Assembly (NCBI GenBank): GCA_035549555.1
Contig: DASZQR010000010.1
Span: 434,001-498,000, forward strand
Reading direction: 5' to 3'
From: Patescibacteria group bacterium
GTDB lineage: Bacteria > Patescibacteriota > Microgenomatia > UBA8517
DNA: 64,000 nt
Within the stretch, counting starts at the first letter, position 1, and every line of letters begins with the position of its first letter. Positions 54,048-61,285 of this stretch are shown here, in pieces. Below the pieces are notes generated by a model. That model searched no databases, had not been told where the DNA came from, and saw only the letters and a list, made by a program, of their open reading frames with translations. A program made the translations under genes and the position numbers.

Positions 54048-54295
54048 GATCTATAGATTATAGCAACTAAAGTTACAAATCCAATCAAAGAGAACATCGC
54101 ATATTCAATCAAGATCTGCAAATTTAAATCTTTTTTAATAAAGTGATGTATTATTCCCCATACAAAATAAGAAAAGCTTGATGCTGTCACAACAGCAAGT
54201 TGAAAATCTTTATTATAAGAAAATGCAAAAAAACCAATAACTGTCGCAATTAGAATTCCTCCCAAACTAAAATAATCAGATAAGTGTTTTGTCAC
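54044..54295 (-). CDS. Small membrane protein
   Basis: 83 residues with three hydrophobic segments (about 10-25, 31-50, 60-80), GTG start overlapping the stop of the CAP gene (GTGA). No recognised family. IIHHFIKKDLNLQIL forms the loop between helices 2 and 3. Confidence 0.65.
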   Translation of the reverse strand: MTKHLSDYFSLGGILIATVIGFFAFSYNKDFQLAVVTASSFSYFVWGIIHHFIKKDLNLQILIEYAMFSLIGFVTLVAIIYRS

Positions 54296-55233
54296 AAAAT
54301 TCTCCCAACACCAATAAATATTAAAATAATTAATATCATTCCCAAAAATGCAATATGTGCTGGATAATGCCCTGCAACTCTAAAAATTTTACGTCTATTA
54401 ATTAAAAATCCATCAACAGCAACAACTAGAATTAAAATCCCTACAAGTGAAAGAGAAATTATTTTTGTTAAATCAAAAGGCGTTACTTTACTTGACGCAA
54501 CCAAAGTTTGAGGAATTAAACTCGCCACGGGAGTTACGACAGGAGTCGGAGTTGGCAAGACTGCCGCAATCACAGCCTGAGGCGTAGCGCCGGCTGACAC
54601 AGTCGCTTTTGGTTTTGTTGTTGGGCTAGGTGTAAGTGTTGCTGCAGCAACTGGTTGAACTGGCAGCGCATCTCCCAATTTTGTTCCAAAAAATTGGACA
54701 ATAATAGTTGTATCAACTCCGTTCAAATTTCCTTCAACAACCCCAATTCCAATATCTTTATAATTTGGACTAAGCATGTTTTCTCGATGTGTTGGCGAAT
54801 TCATCCATGCAGTAACAGCGCTTTGTGCATCTGGAAAATCCCTCGCCAAATTTTCTCCAGCATACTGATAACTATATCCTTGCGCAACAAAAAAAGCCCA
54901 GGGTTGTGTGCCATCCGGTGCAACATGAGCCCAATATTGTTCTTTAAGCATATTCTGTCCTTTTGCAAGCGCTCCTGCATCAAGTTCAGGATTATCTGTC
55001 AAATCCCCTAAACCGTTTTGTTCTCTTTGAACATTTGTTAATCTTTCAACTTCAGATGGAGATATATTTGCAGCATAGCCTAAAACCTGACCGCTTTTAT
55101 GACTTGTAATTTGTAAAGTAAATTGAAATATAAGAATTCCAAAAACAATTAATAAAAGAGATGAAGAATGTAGAATTTTTGCTTTGTGATTATTACTAAC
55201 TCTCGGAACAAAAAGGTGGGCAAGTGCTTCCAT
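54292..55233 (-). CDS. Membrane-anchored CAP-domain (SCP/YkwD-like) surface protein
   Basis: 313 residues: an N-terminal anchor at 22-42, VLGYAANIS, then the CAP domain at about 55-185 with LTNVQREQNGLGDL, YWAHVAPDGTQPW, AGENLARDF and WMNSPTHRENMLSPNYKDIGIG. A Thr/Pro/Ala linker follows, then two C-terminal helices. Bacterial CAP proteins are secreted or wall-bound, with unknown substrates. Directly follows the sortase gene (2-bp gap). The linker is encoded in part by a GC-rich palindrome. Confidence 0.85.
   Translation of the reverse strand: MEALAHLFVPRVSNNHKAKILHSSSLLLIVFGILIFQFTLQITSHKSGQVLGYAANISPSEVERLTNVQREQNGLGDLTDNPELDAGALAKGQNMLKEQYWAHVAPDGTQPWAFFVAQGYSYQYAGENLARDFPDAQSAVTAWMNSPTHRENMLSPNYKDIGIGVVEGNLNGVDTTIIVQFFGTKLGDALPVQPVAAATLTPSPTTKPKATVSAGATPQAVIAAVLPTPTPVVTPVASLIPQTLVASSKVTPFDLTKIISLSLVGILILVVAVDGFLINRRKIFRVAGHYPAHIAFLGMILIILIFIGVGRIL
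54574..54595. repeat. GC-rich palindrome in the CAP protein linker
   Basis: AGCC (54574-54577) pairs with GGCT (54592-54595) and GGCG (54581-54584) with CGCC (54588-54591) around a 3-nt TAG loop, with a TGA bulge. It stands out by GC content and encodes AGATPQA in the flexible linker. Confidence 0.45.
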
Positions 55234-55235
55234 TA

Positions 55236-55754
55236 CTACTCAGCATACACTACCAGTCGCTTTTGATCAAAGCTGCCATCACAGGTATAAAGCGTTAAGC
55301 GGTTTTGTGTTCCAAGCACAGCATTTACATCCGTTGGCAAGACTGCATGTACCTGTGTAACTTTATAAATTATCCATTTGTTTGTATATATATCAATTTC
55401 ATCTCCTGGTTTTAGATTTTTTAAATTAGCAAAAAGCCCAACTCTGTCATGTGCATACATAATTGTATTACCTTTTCCAGGAAGTGCTGAAGAACTAAGC
55501 CAAGCAACTCTGTCATCAAAAAGCTGCCACTCATTTCCCTTTAAAATCGCAGGTGATATTGCCAAATCCAAATTTATTTTAGAAATTTTTATATCAGTCG
55601 GGCTATTTGAGATAGTTGAAATAGTTGTTGGTTGCGGTTTGGTCCATTGCAAACTTGGATTAGTAAGTGCAAAAACAGCTGCTCCAATATAAACTGCAAT
55701 TATTAATTTAAAGAGAATATTTTTTGATAACAAAGAAGGTAACTCCTGCAGCAA
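55236..55754 (-). CDS. Sortase (class D/E-like)
   Basis: 172 residues: membrane anchor at 14-31, then a sortase beta-barrel. Catalytic His102 in YAHDRVG, Cys158 in LYTCDG and Arg166 in KRLVVY are all present; the barrel starts with IKISKINLDLAI. It would cut a C-terminal sorting motif of exported proteins and join them to the envelope. It starts inside the upstream surface-protein gene (47 bp overlap), which points to that protein as a substrate. A TTG seven codons later is an alternative start. Confidence 0.88.
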   Translation of the reverse strand: MLQELPSLLSKNILFKLIIAVYIGAAVFALTNPSLQWTKPQPTTISTISNSPTDIKISKINLDLAISPAILKGNEWQLFDDRVAWLSSSALPGKGNTIMYAHDRVGLFANLKNLKPGDEIDIYTNKWIIYKVTQVHAVLPTDVNAVLGTQNRLTLYTCDGSFDQKRLVVYAE

Positions 55755-57041: not shown

Positions 57042-57403
57042 ACTATTAAAACTCCGGCAGTCGCCCCTATTGTATCAATAAAAACATCGCGAAGGCGAGT
57101 CGTACGATGTGCTGTAAAGCTTTGATGAAATTCATCAGTAAATCCATAAAATCCTGCAATTAAAATTGCATAAATGACAGCTTCTGTAACATTTATTTTT
57201 TCCTGCCTCAAAGCTCTAAATAAAAGCACAGCAAGTATTGCATATTCAATTACATGTGCAGTTTTATGAGCTGCAAAATCCACTGTTACGTTATTTGTTA
57301 CCGTCGGTGAGCTTACAGAAGATCCGGAAAAAATTGCAATCATCCAGATAATTATTGGCAAATAAAACCATAGAAATTTATTCTTACTAAGTTTAGCGAA
57401 CAT
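56975..57403 (-). CDS. VanZ-like membrane protein
   Basis: 142 residues, four helices. VDFAAHKTAHVIEYAILAVLLFRAL and GFTDEFHQSFTAHRTTRLRDVFIDTIGA are the VanZ motifs (K-x2-H...E-Y; DE-x-HQ; RD..D...N/T-x-G). Function of the family is unsettled; some members affect glycopeptide resistance or membrane lipids. The last 67 bp also code for the start of TsaE. Confidence 0.87.
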   Translation of the reverse strand: MFAKLSKNKFLWFYLPIIIWMIAIFSGSSVSSPTVTNNVTVDFAAHKTAHVIEYAILAVLLFRALRQEKINVTEAVIYAILIAGFYGFTDEFHQSFTAHRTTRLRDVFIDTIGATAGVLIVWKLLPKMPKKLLDLAKKLDLI

Positions 57404-58064
57404 GTATTTTAGTATATATTAGATAAGCTCCCATTCCAATCAAAAATAAACCGATTGCAAAAATACTAGCTGCAAAAAATGGAAAATTATTTTTGGGAAT
57501 TTCTTGAACGCTCTCAATACTTGGAATTGGAGTATTCGAAATTTGTTTTTGTGTTTCATCGGCTAAAATTTCAGGAGGGTTTGTCTTCAAAATTACTTCT
57601 TCTGGAATTGTAGTTGGGATAATTGTATCTAAAATAGTAGCAACTGGAGTTTGTGTTTGTGTTACTGCTGAAGGCGAAATACTTGGAGTTTGCAAAACAT
57701 AATTAATATTTACAACTACGTTTTGCTCGCTATCATCAGCCGCGTTTCCCGATTGTGTATATCTTTTTATTTTCAAATCATAATTTCCAGGTCCTAAATA
57801 ATTATTTGAATTATCTATCCTTCCTTGAATCATTGCAGAGGTGCTTGCAGACTTTATTTCAACGGGTAAATAAGATAGTCCATCAGTTCCCCCATACCAA
57901 TCTTTGTTATTAAAAGTTTCTCCGAAATAATTATTTGTTCCATCCTTAAAGAGTTCGATTCTTAAATAATTTGTCCCGGATTTTGCGCCGTTTATTGTTA
58001 CATCAACATTAAATGCATCAGAAGAAATAGTTTGCGGAAAACTATTAATGACTATCGAAGGCAT
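57393..58064 (-). CDS. Surface protein with C-terminal membrane anchor
   Basis: 223 residues. No signal peptide at the chosen start (TAATG overlap with the upstream stop), which is odd because the body looks extracellular: beta-rich domain at 1-125 (FNVDVTINGAKSGTNYLRIEL, GPGNYDLKIKRYTQSG), a Pro/Thr-rich linker to about 190, then one helix and a short basic tail. Export may rely on the C-terminal helix, or the N-terminus is elsewhere. No family recognised with confidence. Confidence 0.65.
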   Translation of the reverse strand: MPSIVINSFPQTISSDAFNVDVTINGAKSGTNYLRIELFKDGTNNYFGETFNNKDWYGGTDGLSYLPVEIKSASTSAMIQGRIDNSNNYLGPGNYDLKIKRYTQSGNAADDSEQNVVVNINYVLQTPSISPSAVTQTQTPVATILDTIIPTTIPEEVILKTNPPEILADETQKQISNTPIPSIESVQEIPKNNFPFFAASIFAIGLFLIGMGAYLIYTKIHVR

Positions 58065-59224
58065 TAATTTATACTAACACTATCAACTTCAAAAATTGAG
58101 GAAATGGAATAATGATCAGTAAAATTTAAATTTTTCCCGTTTGGTAAATATGGATCATTCATTACATAATTTCCATTACTTCCAGATTTTATAACCACAA
58201 AATGAGTTCCTCCATATGCATGAATTCCAACCACTACTGGGTTTCCTGTTGAAAGTGTTGAATCAATAGAAGAAACAGCACGAGTTGCTGTAACTCCATC
58301 AGCATGAATCACATAATTTAAATAAGCAGGGTAATAAGATGCAAAATTTGTTGGGTCAGAATTAATTGTTATTGGGGTAACGCTTTTATGCCCATAATGA
58401 GTCAGAATCATCGCCATCGAAGTAACCAAACATCCGTCAGATGCAATTGTGTATTGCGTTCCGTTTAATGGCAAAGATCCCCAGCTTGTATCACGCTGAT
58501 TATAATAACATCCCCAGCTGTCAGAACAATCAGTTTGATTAGAAAGAAGTCCGCTCCCTCCAGCGCTTGCAGTAAATTTACTAAACGCTGCAAGTTGTGT
58601 TTGAGCTTGAGCAAGTAGTTTTTGATAATTCGCTTCGCTTCCTTGTGTTTGTGTCAAAAGCGCCTGTTTTTGAGACTTTTGTGTATTTAAACTATTTTCA
58701 TCAGCTTGCAATTGTGTTTGTAAATCTTCAGATTGCTGTTTAGAATTTTCATAAGTTGTTTGTGCTGATTGCAATCTTGTAAGCAAAGTTTGGTCGCTAG
58801 CCTGTGCTTCTTGCAAATAATGAAACTTTGAGAGTGCATCATTTAAATCAGCTGACGATAAAATCAAATAAGTTGGTTCATTTGTTCGTGCCATTTCGTA
58901 AGTTGCAACAGCGCGCGCTGAAAATGCTTTCGTTAAATCATTCAAAGAACTTTGCACTTCTCCAATTCTTCCAGTTAATAAATTAATTTCATCTTCAGTT
59001 TGAGTAATTTTGAGTTCTGTCAAAGTAATTTGCGCATTAAATTGTGCAATTTGGTTCGATAATGTATTTGCTTGTCCGGCTAAAGTTGAAAGTTTTTGCT
59101 GATATTGTGTTATTTCATCTCGTATACATCCTTCGTCATTTGGATCACAATCTGCAAGTACAACGCTTTTTGTTGCAAAGAAAAATAAAGGCAAAATCAA
59201 TAACAATAAAATCTTTTTCCGCAT
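58064..59224 (-). CDS. Secreted coiled-coil protein with C39-like cysteine peptidase domain (FtsEX partner)
   Basis: 386 residues: signal peptide 1-24, long coiled coil at about 30-215 (QANTLSNQIAQFNAQI, LNDALSKFHYLQEAQASDQT) like PcsB/CwlO/EnvC, then a papain-like domain at 235-386. Catalytic Cys in SDGCLVTSMAMILTHYG, His in GTHFVVIKS and Asp in MNDPY fit Peptidase_C39_2. Placed directly after ftsX (TAATG overlap), it is the expected wall hydrolase or activator switched by FtsEX, but with a C39 domain in place of CHAP or NlpC. Confidence 0.85.
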   Translation of the reverse strand: MRKKILLLLILPLFFFATKSVVLADCDPNDEGCIRDEITQYQQKLSTLAGQANTLSNQIAQFNAQITLTELKITQTEDEINLLTGRIGEVQSSLNDLTKAFSARAVATYEMARTNEPTYLILSSADLNDALSKFHYLQEAQASDQTLLTRLQSAQTTYENSKQQSEDLQTQLQADENSLNTQKSQKQALLTQTQGSEANYQKLLAQAQTQLAAFSKFTASAGGSGLLSNQTDCSDSWGCYYNQRDTSWGSLPLNGTQYTIASDGCLVTSMAMILTHYGHKSVTPITINSDPTNFASYYPAYLNYVIHADGVTATRAVSSIDSTLSTGNPVVVGIHAYGGTHFVVIKSGSNGNYVMNDPYLPNGKNLNFTDHYSISSIFEVDSVSIN

Positions 59225-60126
59225 TACTTAGAAAGAGCTCGAGTTACTGCAGTAAATCCTCCCAAAAACGCAATAATAAAACCAATAAGAAGCTCGCCGC
59301 CAAACACAACTAAATTCAATTCAAAAAATTGCTGGGTATTATGTGGTAATACTGGAATTTGTGCAAAGTAGGAAATAATTGCAGGGCTGACATACAAAAT
59401 CAAAATTAGTGCAAGGACCCAACCCAAAATAACTCCAATTGTTACATAAATAATTGCCTCAAGCATAATTGGAGTTCGTATAAAAGAGGAAGTTGCTCCC
59501 ATTATTCTCAAAGTATCTATTTCCCCTTTTTTAGTAGCAATTCTCATACTTACAATCACCATCAAAACCAAAAATGAAGTGAACGCTAAAACAAACGCAA
59601 GTACTAATCCTCCAACTCTTATATAAAAAGTTATTTTAGTTAATCTGCTTATAACAGAACTCGCGCTTTCCCCTCCAATTGCAGCAGTAAATGAAACAGA
59701 GTCTACCGTCGGCTCTTTCTTTACTGAATTAATAATATTTTGCGCATCGCTTAAATCTTTTACAGAAAACTCCAAACTTGCAGGAAAAATAGAAGGAGAA
59801 ACAAGCTGCCCAAGAAGCGGATTATCGCTTGTCGCATTTTTATAAATAGTAAGTGCATCTTCTTTGGAAACATATTTCAAATCTCTTATTCGCGAATCAT
59901 TTCCAAGTTTAGTTTGTAAAGCGTTCACATCAGTATCTTTTGCATCAGTTTTCAAAAACACAATAATTTGCGGTTTTGTTTCAAAATAATTTAAAACTTG
60001 TGCAGAAGAATAAATTAAAATCGAAAATATTGTTGCAACAAAAAAAGTAACAGTCAAAACTAAAATCGCAGCAACCCCCTGGAAAGGTGATCGGCGTATA
60101 TTTGATAGAGCAGTTTTTAAATACAT
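59224..60126 (-). CDS. ftsX: Cell division permease FtsX
   Basis: 300 residues. Helix 1 at 20-43, outer domain at 44-165 (ETKPQIIVFLKTDAKDTDV, YVSKEDAL, LPASLEFSV-type IFPASLEFSVKD), then three helices with KKGEIDTLRIMGATSSFIRTP, the FtsX signature loop. Acts with FtsE to control septal wall hydrolysis. Adjacent to ftsE without a gap. Confidence 0.93.
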   Translation of the reverse strand: MYLKTALSNIRRSPFQGVAAILVLTVTFFVATIFSILIYSSAQVLNYFETKPQIIVFLKTDAKDTDVNALQTKLGNDSRIRDLKYVSKEDALTIYKNATSDNPLLGQLVSPSIFPASLEFSVKDLSDAQNIINSVKKEPTVDSVSFTAAIGGESASSVISRLTKITFYIRVGGLVLAFVLAFTSFLVLMVIVSMRIATKKGEIDTLRIMGATSSFIRTPIMLEAIIYVTIGVILGWVLALILILYVSPAIISYFAQIPVLPHNTQQFFELNLVVFGGELLIGFIIAFLGGFTAVTRALSK

Positions 60127-60780
60127 CTATTTGCTTTCTACTTTCCCGTCAACTAATTTTATAGTTCTTTTCTTCATTTTTTTAATTATCGTTAAGTTGT
60201 GGCTTGTAACAATAATTGTTTTGCCGGCTTTATTAATCTTATCAAGAAGTTCCATTATAACTTCGCTTGTTTCCCAGTCAAGATTTCCAGTTGGTTCATC
60301 AGCAAAAATTATTTTTGGGTCCGTTGACATTGCTCGCGCAATAGCAACTCTCTGCAATTCTCCTCCTGATAACTGTGCTGGGAAAAGCTCACTGCGGTTT
60401 GCTAGCCCAACAAGTTTAAGTACTTCTTTTTTACGAGTTTCCCATTCAGATTTCGGAACTCCTTTGATAGCAAGCGCCATTTCAATGTTTTCCCCCACAG
60501 TTTTTTCTTTCAAAAGTTTAAAATCCTGAAATACAACTCCAATCGATTGGCGAAGAACTGGAATTTTGCTTTTGGAAAGTTTAGTTATATCAATTCCATC
60601 AAACATTATTTTTCCGCTTGTTGCCGGAAATTCTCTCAAAAGTAATCTTAAAACTGTCGTTTTTCCGCTTCCCGAAGGGCCAATAATAAAAACAAATTCT
60701 CCCTTTTCAATTTTAAAAGAAACATCATTAAGAGCGCTTATTCGTCCAAAATTTTTACTGACGTTTACAAATTCAACCAT
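60127..60780 (-). CDS. ftsE: Cell division ATP-binding protein FtsE
   Basis: 217 residues from the ATG preceded by AAGGAG; a start nine codons earlier lacks family support. GPSGSGKT at 34-41 (Walker A), VVFQDFKLL (Q-loop), LSGGELQRVAIARAM (signature), KIIFADEPTGNLDW (Walker B), SHN (H-loop). FtsE dimers power the mechanical signal passed through FtsX to the outer coiled-coil partner. One of the few genes here with a clear purine-rich ribosome site, though it sits very close to the start. Confidence 0.93.
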   Translation of the reverse strand: MVEFVNVSKNFGRISALNDVSFKIEKGEFVFIIGPSGSGKTTVLRLLLREFPATSGKIMFDGIDITKLSKSKIPVLRQSIGVVFQDFKLLKEKTVGENIEMALAIKGVPKSEWETRKKEVLKLVGLANRSELFPAQLSGGELQRVAIARAMSTDPKIIFADEPTGNLDWETSEVIMELLDKINKAGKTIIVTSHNLTIIKKMKKRTIKLVDGKVESK

Positions 60781-60808
60781 TCTCCTTAATGCTAACACAT
60801 GAAGCAAA

Positions 60809-61252
60809 CTACTGCACTACTTGTATTCGCACAACATCCATAAGCCACGGAGCGTAATGCGCTGAAAGTGTATCTCCCCAAACTTTCACTTTCTTCCCAA
60901 CAAACTGGCTCATATCAACTGTAATTGAATTTAAATAAACCATGTGTTGTGGCCCATTTCCAGAATCCAAGTGGTATGTCCCTTCTCCTTTGATTCCCCC
61001 AGTCATCAAAATTCCAGTTGGCATTTTATTACTGTCATATTTTGAAACATCGGTAATTCCAGCTTCAGTCGGGGACACAGTTACACTTGAATTTTTGGTA
61101 TTTGGATTAGGAGTCTTGGCATTTTTCTTAGAAACCAAAAATCCAACAGCAAGCCCTACTATTATTATAATGATGGCTCCGCCAATCATCATTGGCATTA
61201 TATTTGAAGATTTAACAGGTTTAACTATATTGGAAGAACTATTGTTCTCCAT
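60809..61252 (-). CDS. Membrane-anchored hypothetical protein
   Basis: 147 residues from the ATG 5 nt after TATATT; an earlier start is inside the promoter. One N-terminal helix at about 20-42, an Asn/Thr/Pro linker, then a small outer beta domain: KMPTGILMTGGIKGEGTYHLD, VYLNSITVDMSQFVGKKVKVWGDTLS, ending VVRIQVV. This resembles OB-fold-like outer domains found often in CPR, but I cannot name a family. First gene of the envelope operon. Confidence 0.65.
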   Translation of the reverse strand: MENNSSSNIVKPVKSSNIMPMMIGGAIIIIIVGLAVGFLVSKKNAKTPNPNTKNSSVTVSPTEAGITDVSKYDSNKMPTGILMTGGIKGEGTYHLDSGNGPQHMVYLNSITVDMSQFVGKKVKVWGDTLSAHYAPWLMDVVRIQVVQ

Positions 61253-61257
61253 AGCCC

Positions 61258-61285
61258 AATATACCACTATTTACAAAATTGTAAA
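61258..61285 (-). promoter_or_regulatory. Promoter of the envelope operon
   Basis: Minus strand: TTTACA (-35, 61285-61280), 16-nt spacer, TATATT (-10, 61263-61258), then 5 nt to the ATG at 61252. Likely leaderless. Confidence 0.55.
61270..61285. repeat. Inverted repeat TTTACA-N4-TGTAAA
   Basis: Perfect 6-bp arms around AAAT, between the divergent genes at 61252 and 61318 and covering the -35 box of the former. Could be an operator or simply two facing -35 elements. Confidence 0.45.

Follow-up and report, generated by a model that had tools for sequence, protein, structure and literature searches.

What does an FtsEX complex control when the protein encoded directly behind ftsX ends in a C39-like cysteine peptidase domain? 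This question is raised by a 64,000-nucleotide stretch (the window) from the genome of a Patescibacteria group bacterium of the class Microgenomatia (GenBank assembly GCA_035549555.1, contig DASZQR010000010.1, positions 434,001 to 498,000). Its minus strand encodes the ATPase FtsE (60127-60780), the membrane subunit FtsX (59224-60126) and a secreted protein of 386 amino acids, the effector (58064-59224), in which a coiled-coil arm is followed by a C39-like head. The FtsEX outputs described in the cited passages carry CHAP, NlpC/P60 or (degenerate) LytM heads (PMC11627006), and among the open-licence papers listed we found no account of a C39 head with FtsEX, including the combination of FtsX and C39 in Patescibacteria. 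We consider it probable that the locus encodes an FtsEX module whose partner is an autoinhibited C39-like cysteine peptidase that cuts wall peptides upon release.

The FtsE protein is recognized by the Pfam family ABC_tran (125.2 bits) and scores 261.3 bits against the NCBIfam equivalog TIGR02673, i.e. 3.6 bits short of its cut-off of 264.85. FtsX combines the extracellular domain (FtsX_ECD, PF18075: 55.5 bits, cut-off 23.5) with the FtsX domain proper (PF02687: 46.6 bits, cut-off 25.5) and stays below the cut-off of TIGR00439 (141.5 against 255 bits). The effector is hence encoded beside both an FtsE and an FtsX with an extracellular domain, the setting that marks division hydrolases or activators partnered with FtsEX. 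We place the start of ftsE at an ATG (60780) that follows an AAGGAG-like sequence recognized by eye, the longest open reading frame (ORF) beginning at 60807. The ftsE and ftsX genes abut with 0 nucleotides between them, while one-base overlaps (TAATG) are found both at the ftsX/effector junction and at the junction of the effector with a fourth ORF that extends the unit (see below). The preliminary description had ftsE, ftsX and the effector gene fused as one translation unit. The back-to-back genes on the same strand agree with a unit, and the one-base overlaps from ftsX through to the downstream gene fit with translational coupling; a protein fusion is ruled out by the stop codons between the three genes, which are separate ORFs.

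The effector begins with MRKK and a hydrophobic run up to VLA-D, a signal peptide by eye (residues 1-24; 59153-59224, minus strand), in which residues 2-16 are modelled as a helix. The arm, the part expected to bind FtsX, spans residues 31-220 (58565-59134) and is helical in the model of the whole protein. A search of solved structures with the single effector sequence gave no useful match, so that an alignment profile was needed (80 rows: the window effector and 79 relatives). When the arm profile is compared with all PDB chains, the top three matches are EnvC-type chains (E = 8.3e-11, 1.2e-9 and 5.8e-9), followed by the FtsEX partner of Vibrio cholerae (E = 2.1e-7) and PcsB (E = 1.3e-6), with further coiled coils appearing only from E = 5.6e-5 onward. 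These five best matches bear out the earlier proposal of a coiled coil of the PcsB/EnvC kind. The top three Foldseek matches of the whole model, two PcsB chains and FtsEX-EnvC, are weak (E = 1.2e-3 to 3.6e-3). The Pfam family CC_PcsB reaches 17.5 bits on the window effector, below its cut-off of 27, but is detected at E<=0.01 in 52 of the 89 members of the class. Thus, the effector presents as a secreted protein, its signal peptide assigned by eye, whose N-terminal coiled coil shares homology with FtsX-binding arms.

The head (residues 232-386; 58067-58531, minus strand) is detected over residues 240-359 by Peptidase_C39_2 (PF13529: 29.8 bits, cut-off 24), with Peptidase_C39 proper (PF03412) remaining under its cut-off (20.1 against 22 bits). 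Unlike C39 proper, the effector is a stand-alone protein with a signal peptide and has no ABC exporter fused to it. A CHAP (PF05257) or NlpC/P60 (PF00877) head was rejected for the window effector, as neither family gives a Pfam match at E<=1, a range in which few matches above about 0.1 pass the HMMER filters; C71 is likewise absent among its Pfam matches at E<=1. Three residues of the head, which correspond to those that we take to be catalytic in Peptidase_C39_2, are invariant: Cys265 (58430-58432), the proposed nucleophile, His341 (58202-58204), the proposed general base, and Asp357 (58154-58156), the proposed third member of the triad. They are retained in all 80 aligned sequences, in 44/44 C39 heads of the class survey below and in 7/7 from other classes, these sets overlapping in that some loci represent the same contig in both collections. 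Gln243 of an NQRD motif (58496-58498), likely to be the oxyanion-hole glutamine, is equally invariant in the alignment (80/80) and in the class loci (44/44), and is present in six of the seven heads from other classes.

The model of the whole effector has a predicted local distance difference test score (pLDDT) of 90.9 and a predicted template modelling score (pTM) of 0.76. Structural comparison of this model using VIA recovered mostly unrelated coiled coils (e.g. PI3K p85), and the head was therefore folded separately (pLDDT 96.8, pTM 0.92). Its nearest solved fold is that of PeiR (8z4h, 8z4n; Z 12.3, root-mean-square deviation (rmsd) 3.2-3.3, 131 aligned residues, 14% identity), after which come the C39 domains of PCAT1 (Z 10.6) and ComA (Z 10.3), the C39-like protein 3erv of Bacillus anthracis (Z 10.2, rmsd 3.4, 134 aligned residues) and other papain-fold proteins down to Z 8.5 among the best 50 matches listed. 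CHAP and NlpC chains are not among these best 50, an absence to which we attach no weight. According to the model, then, the head is a papain fold of the C39-like type, and together with the PF13529 match this upholds the earlier assignment over CHAP or NlpC/P60. Since Foldseek matches the head only weakly (best E = 8.2e-3), the proximity to PeiR is a lead on fold: what the modelled head has in common with this Peptidase C71 enzyme is a papain-type fold. PeiW and PeiP, enzymes classed under the same name, are described, in the passage cited, as cleaving pseudomurein Ala-epsilon-Lys isopeptide bonds with a common Cys-His-Asp triad (PMC4592898).

The effector finds matches at E<=0.001 in 56 of 56 relatives (window genome included), and a search with a mixed alignment finds them in 357 of the 373 genomes of the class at the same threshold, weaker coiled-coil paralogs being counted. 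Many relatives additionally show weak second matches, to the arm or the C39 part, in frames of about 560-670 amino acids (e.g. G018 C2:40551-41198 and G017 C48:47425-47877). We surveyed 90 class loci, one per genome, comprising the 30 best relatives (one being the window) and 60 picked for family spread; this is a non-random sample, and the listings from which it was drawn are biased to strong matches. Its heads fall into two types: 44 are C39 and 46 are circularly permuted M23/LytM domains. Labelling by motif alone yields 42 and 46 with two unassigned (L036 and L037), which were set to C39 by reading and which align at the triad residues; independently of the motifs, a Pfam scan of 89 of them (fragment L021 omitted) assigns PF13529 to 42 and PF01551 to 46. 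With either head type, the effector lies downstream of a same-strand ftsX in 54 of 60 class loci (L033-L092), a few with gaps of some hundred bases, an order too regular to be due to chance. The other six comprise two loci cut by a contig end (L033, L078) and four (L036, L037, L054, L062) without ftsX in the locus DNA examined.

In the alternative head, the two halves of an M23/LytM domain stand in reversed order: the half with the HxH motif comes first and the half with H-x-x-x-D...YxH is C-terminal. In L017, the better of two Pfam M23 stretches covers residues 335-391, at the C terminus of the protein, with profile positions 1-53, and NCBIfam recognizes the C-terminal part of SpoIIQ at 235-279 and the N-terminal part of another peptidoglycan hydrolase at 305-391 (all NCBIfam matches below cut-offs); in L020, M23 profile positions 62-96 fall at residues 231-267 in a match below the cut-off. 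When permuted heads are pooled (55: 46 from the class and nine others, including L017, L024, L055 and L093), HxH precedes HxxxD by pattern in 51 (the misses being L121, L130, L136 and L147), and the last Y/F/W-x-H motif lies 5-9 residues from the end in 53. We found no circularly permuted M23/LytM head of an FtsEX effector among the open-licence papers listed; the term 'circularly permuted' occurs alongside LytM in one review, in the passage on NlpC/P60 (PMC6403190).

How the two head types are distributed over a common arm was traced with quick trees. A tree of FtsX from 83 of the 90 loci calls for at least 20 head changes, 11 of them forced by well-supported branches, against a mean of 27.8 when heads are shuffled; the arm tree (78 loci, five more being left out) calls for at least 14, eight of them forced, against a shuffled mean of 26.3. 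On the latter, well-supported clades consisting of a single family contain both heads (families f5, f10, f11 and f15). A comparison of identities over 40 loci of six mixed-head families points the same way: pairs with different heads (n=146) retain mean identities of 51.2% in the arm and 55.5% in FtsX while falling to 28.0% in the head, as against 55.7%, 55.8% and 59.5%, respectively, for pairs with the same head (n=170). Head identity drops as arm and FtsX identity is kept, which argues for swaps of the head on an arm and FtsX that stay in place; thus, judging from these sequences, heads of different chemistry appear interchangeable on one arm chassis.

To look beyond the class, we searched 239 genomes of the phylum for FtsX_ECD, and 225 have it at E<=0.001. 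From these matches we took 60 loci outside the class, one per family; 53 have a downstream ORF of at least 300 amino acids and seven do not, and after 18 were dropped as unrelated by reading, 35 effectors remained. They comprise seven C39 heads, nine permuted M23 heads along with L141 (first half only), seven canonical M23 heads and 11 CHAP heads, the last being assigned to their loci by reading; Pfam itself reports M23 in 17, CHAP in 11 and C39_2 in six. With the C39 head at 44 of 90 class loci and in seven of 35 effectors from other classes, its earlier characterization as an uncommon FtsEX output does not hold in this phylum. To follow the C39 form itself, we used a GTDB scan and took 80 of 178 confirmed relatives, 79 of which have a recognised arm (L228 was dropped). 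The titles of these relatives are from Microgenomates groups, Parcubacteria, Colwellbacteria, Doudnabacteria, Yanofskybacteria and Kaiserbacteria, and ftsX lies at most 600 nucleotides upstream in 34 of the 79. At three of six loci checked where the C39 effector is not beside ftsX (L195, L214, L222), the upstream ORF encodes a Glu/Gln-tRNA synthetase-type protein.

CwlO is FtsEX-controlled and bears an NlpC/P60 head, as does RipC, whereas the window effector has no NlpC/P60 match at E<=1. RipC resembles it in joining an FtsEX-controlled arm to a cysteine-peptidase head, as does Streptococcus PcsB, a secreted FtsEX partner with the same two-part build; however, the head of PcsB is CHAP (PMC11627006, passages cited), while that of the window effector is C39-like and without a CHAP match at E<=1. 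EnvC offers the closest arm (best profile match E = 8.3e-11) but ends, in the same source, in a degenerate LytM domain that activates amidases (PMC11627006). In contrast, the window effector has conserved cysteine-triad residues (80/80; 51/51), and its genome has no Amidase_3 match at E<=0.001 that an amidase activator could act on. With Peptidase_C39_2 proteins such as 3erv it shares the family, whose cut-off it passes, and the fold (Z 10.2), but not the setting, its domain being placed on an arm of the FtsX-partner type. PeiR, the nearest solved fold, is the lytic enzyme of a methanogen virus, and the window effector has no Pfam match to a C71 family at E<=1. Domain N5 of mycobacteriophage endolysins is also a C39-like cysteine protease module, though of a phage enzyme and without a link to FtsEX in the passage cited (PMC3314691).

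These comparisons suggest how the module might operate. The passages cited describe autoinhibition for RipC, PcsB and EnvC, and for EnvC and RipC a release brought about by ATP-bound FtsEX, which compresses the arm (PMC11627006). Since both the arm and FtsX are homologous, we carry this mechanism over to the window effector: the arm would dock onto the extracellular domain of FtsX and, when docked, hold the C39-like head in an inactive state; once FtsE binds ATP, FtsX would change and the arm would move; and the freed head would cleave septal peptidoglycan at a peptide or isopeptide bond. In this picture, the arm would serve as a chassis, on which related bacteria carry a permuted M23/LytM head with the same FtsX. 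Cleavage of wall peptides by the head is favoured by analogy, because it exchanges with LytM-type heads and because its nearest solved fold is that of a wall isopeptidase. If this is correct, the swapping of a papain-like head with a permuted LytM head on one arm would imply that FtsEX exerts its control by way of the arm, independently of which enzyme is attached, and the effector would provide a concrete division hydrolase for bacteria such as that of the window, in whose genome neither Amidase_3 nor NlpC/P60 is matched at E<=0.001. The natural pairs with the same arm and different heads also furnish test material for arm-based FtsEX control. More tentatively, and with somewhat less than even confidence, we suggest that FtsEX is, phylum-wide, a switch for interchangeable wall-cutting heads (C39-like endo(iso)peptidase, permuted LytM, canonical M23 and CHAP), with the C39 form constituting a new class, that of FtsEX-driven endopeptidases acting on peptidoglycan cross-links.

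Several observations weigh against an FtsEX-controlled C39-like peptidase that cuts wall peptides. The window genome (G000; about 1.01 Mb in 16 contigs, 96% complete) has, at E<=0.001, two canonical M23 matches, one CHAP match in a frame of 1011 amino acids and five transpeptidase matches, but none to Mur_ligase_M; without such a match the origin of the wall peptides is in doubt, which is our strongest reservation about the proposed substrate. C39 proper is, moreover, known for the cleavage of leader peptides. Both trees show some clustering by type of head, with at most two of 500 shuffles as low for FtsX and none of 500 for the arm. Four relatives (G020, G021, G027, G029) match the effector weakly, in frames of 575-667 amino acids, and in these it may be absent or missed. 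Finally, 45 of the 79 C39 relatives have no ftsX within 600 nucleotides upstream in the locus DNA examined (in six cases the effector is close to the end of the locus, and in L175 ftsX is 612 nucleotides away), which weakens strict operon dependence, while an FtsX encoded at another locus could still exert control. As for the Mur ligase, given 96% completeness the gap could reflect incomplete assembly; Mur_ligase_M is also unmatched in three of 55 relatives, and a contiguous cluster (L236; G000 C10:346500-366400) has mraY-, ftsW-, murG-, ftsA-, ftsZ- and penicillin-binding protein-like genes, most of them named by eye. A tie between head type and loss of the Mur ligase was considered and not borne out: the unmatched genomes are G000, with a C39 head, and G001, G019 and G022, with permuted M23 heads.

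The Mur ligase gap, the sub-threshold PF03412 match (20.1 against 22 bits) and the presence of the PCAT1 and ComA C39 domains among the nearest folds would all suit a protease that FtsEX positions for the processing of proteins or peptides (leader peptides, surface proteins, bacteriocins or host proteins) and that does not cut peptidoglycan. We regard this as unlikely: the same arm carries M23/LytM heads in exchange for this one, which suggests a common substrate, the top fold match, PeiR, is a wall isopeptidase, the head is not joined to a peptide exporter, and the genome has the five transpeptidase matches together with a MurG-like match and an MraY-like gene. Less probable than this is an EnvC-like role of the head as an activator. 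EnvC, with its degenerate LytM domain, is the best arm match, and two M23 matches and one CHAP match lie elsewhere in the genome; against it stand the invariant Cys, His and Asp (80/80; 51/51) and the lack of an Amidase_3 match at E<=0.001. Least probable is that the effector is a secreted peptidase located behind ftsX by coincidence and not subject to FtsEX; the 45 of 79 relatives away from ftsX in the locus DNA examined, and the Glu/Gln-tRNA synthetase-type upstream ORF at three of the six such loci checked, are what one would then expect, but so widespread a position beside ftsX with either head type (54 of 60 class loci) and an arm homologous to known FtsX partners would not be. Moreover, EnvC and CwlO work with FtsEX even though they are not encoded beside ftsEX. 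Thus, we retain the FtsEX-controlled, wall-directed C39-like peptidase as the probable reading of the locus.

A phage origin of the effector was also considered and rejected: one viral-contig scan returned no relative, and the matches in PHROGs, which are weak only and include one endolysin (E = 0.0035), and in BFVD, to a tail tape measure protein (E = 1.9e-5) and a 'lysozyme' (E = 7.2e-4), are not taken as support, the latter showing only that the papain-type fold is present in phage proteins.

The ftsEX unit has a neighbour on either side, both on the minus strand. The fourth ORF (57393-58064) encodes a protein of 223 amino acids with a C-terminal membrane helix by eye, which has no family above cut-off in Pfam, NCBIfam or PHROGs and homologs at 37 of 232 loci, including two from the window itself and with some contigs counted twice. 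Upstream, a conserved neighbour (60809-61267) encodes a protein of 152 amino acids with one membrane helix by eye; it has no family above cut-off in Pfam or NCBIfam and has homologs at 87 of the 232 loci. Elsewhere in the window genome there is a second C39_2 protein (L001, G000 C10:342813-346136), in a 600-amino-acid frame and by eye without a coiled-coil arm. Further downstream of the unit, at 54292-55754, a CAP-like secreted protein is encoded beside a sortase-like protein, both recognized by eye.

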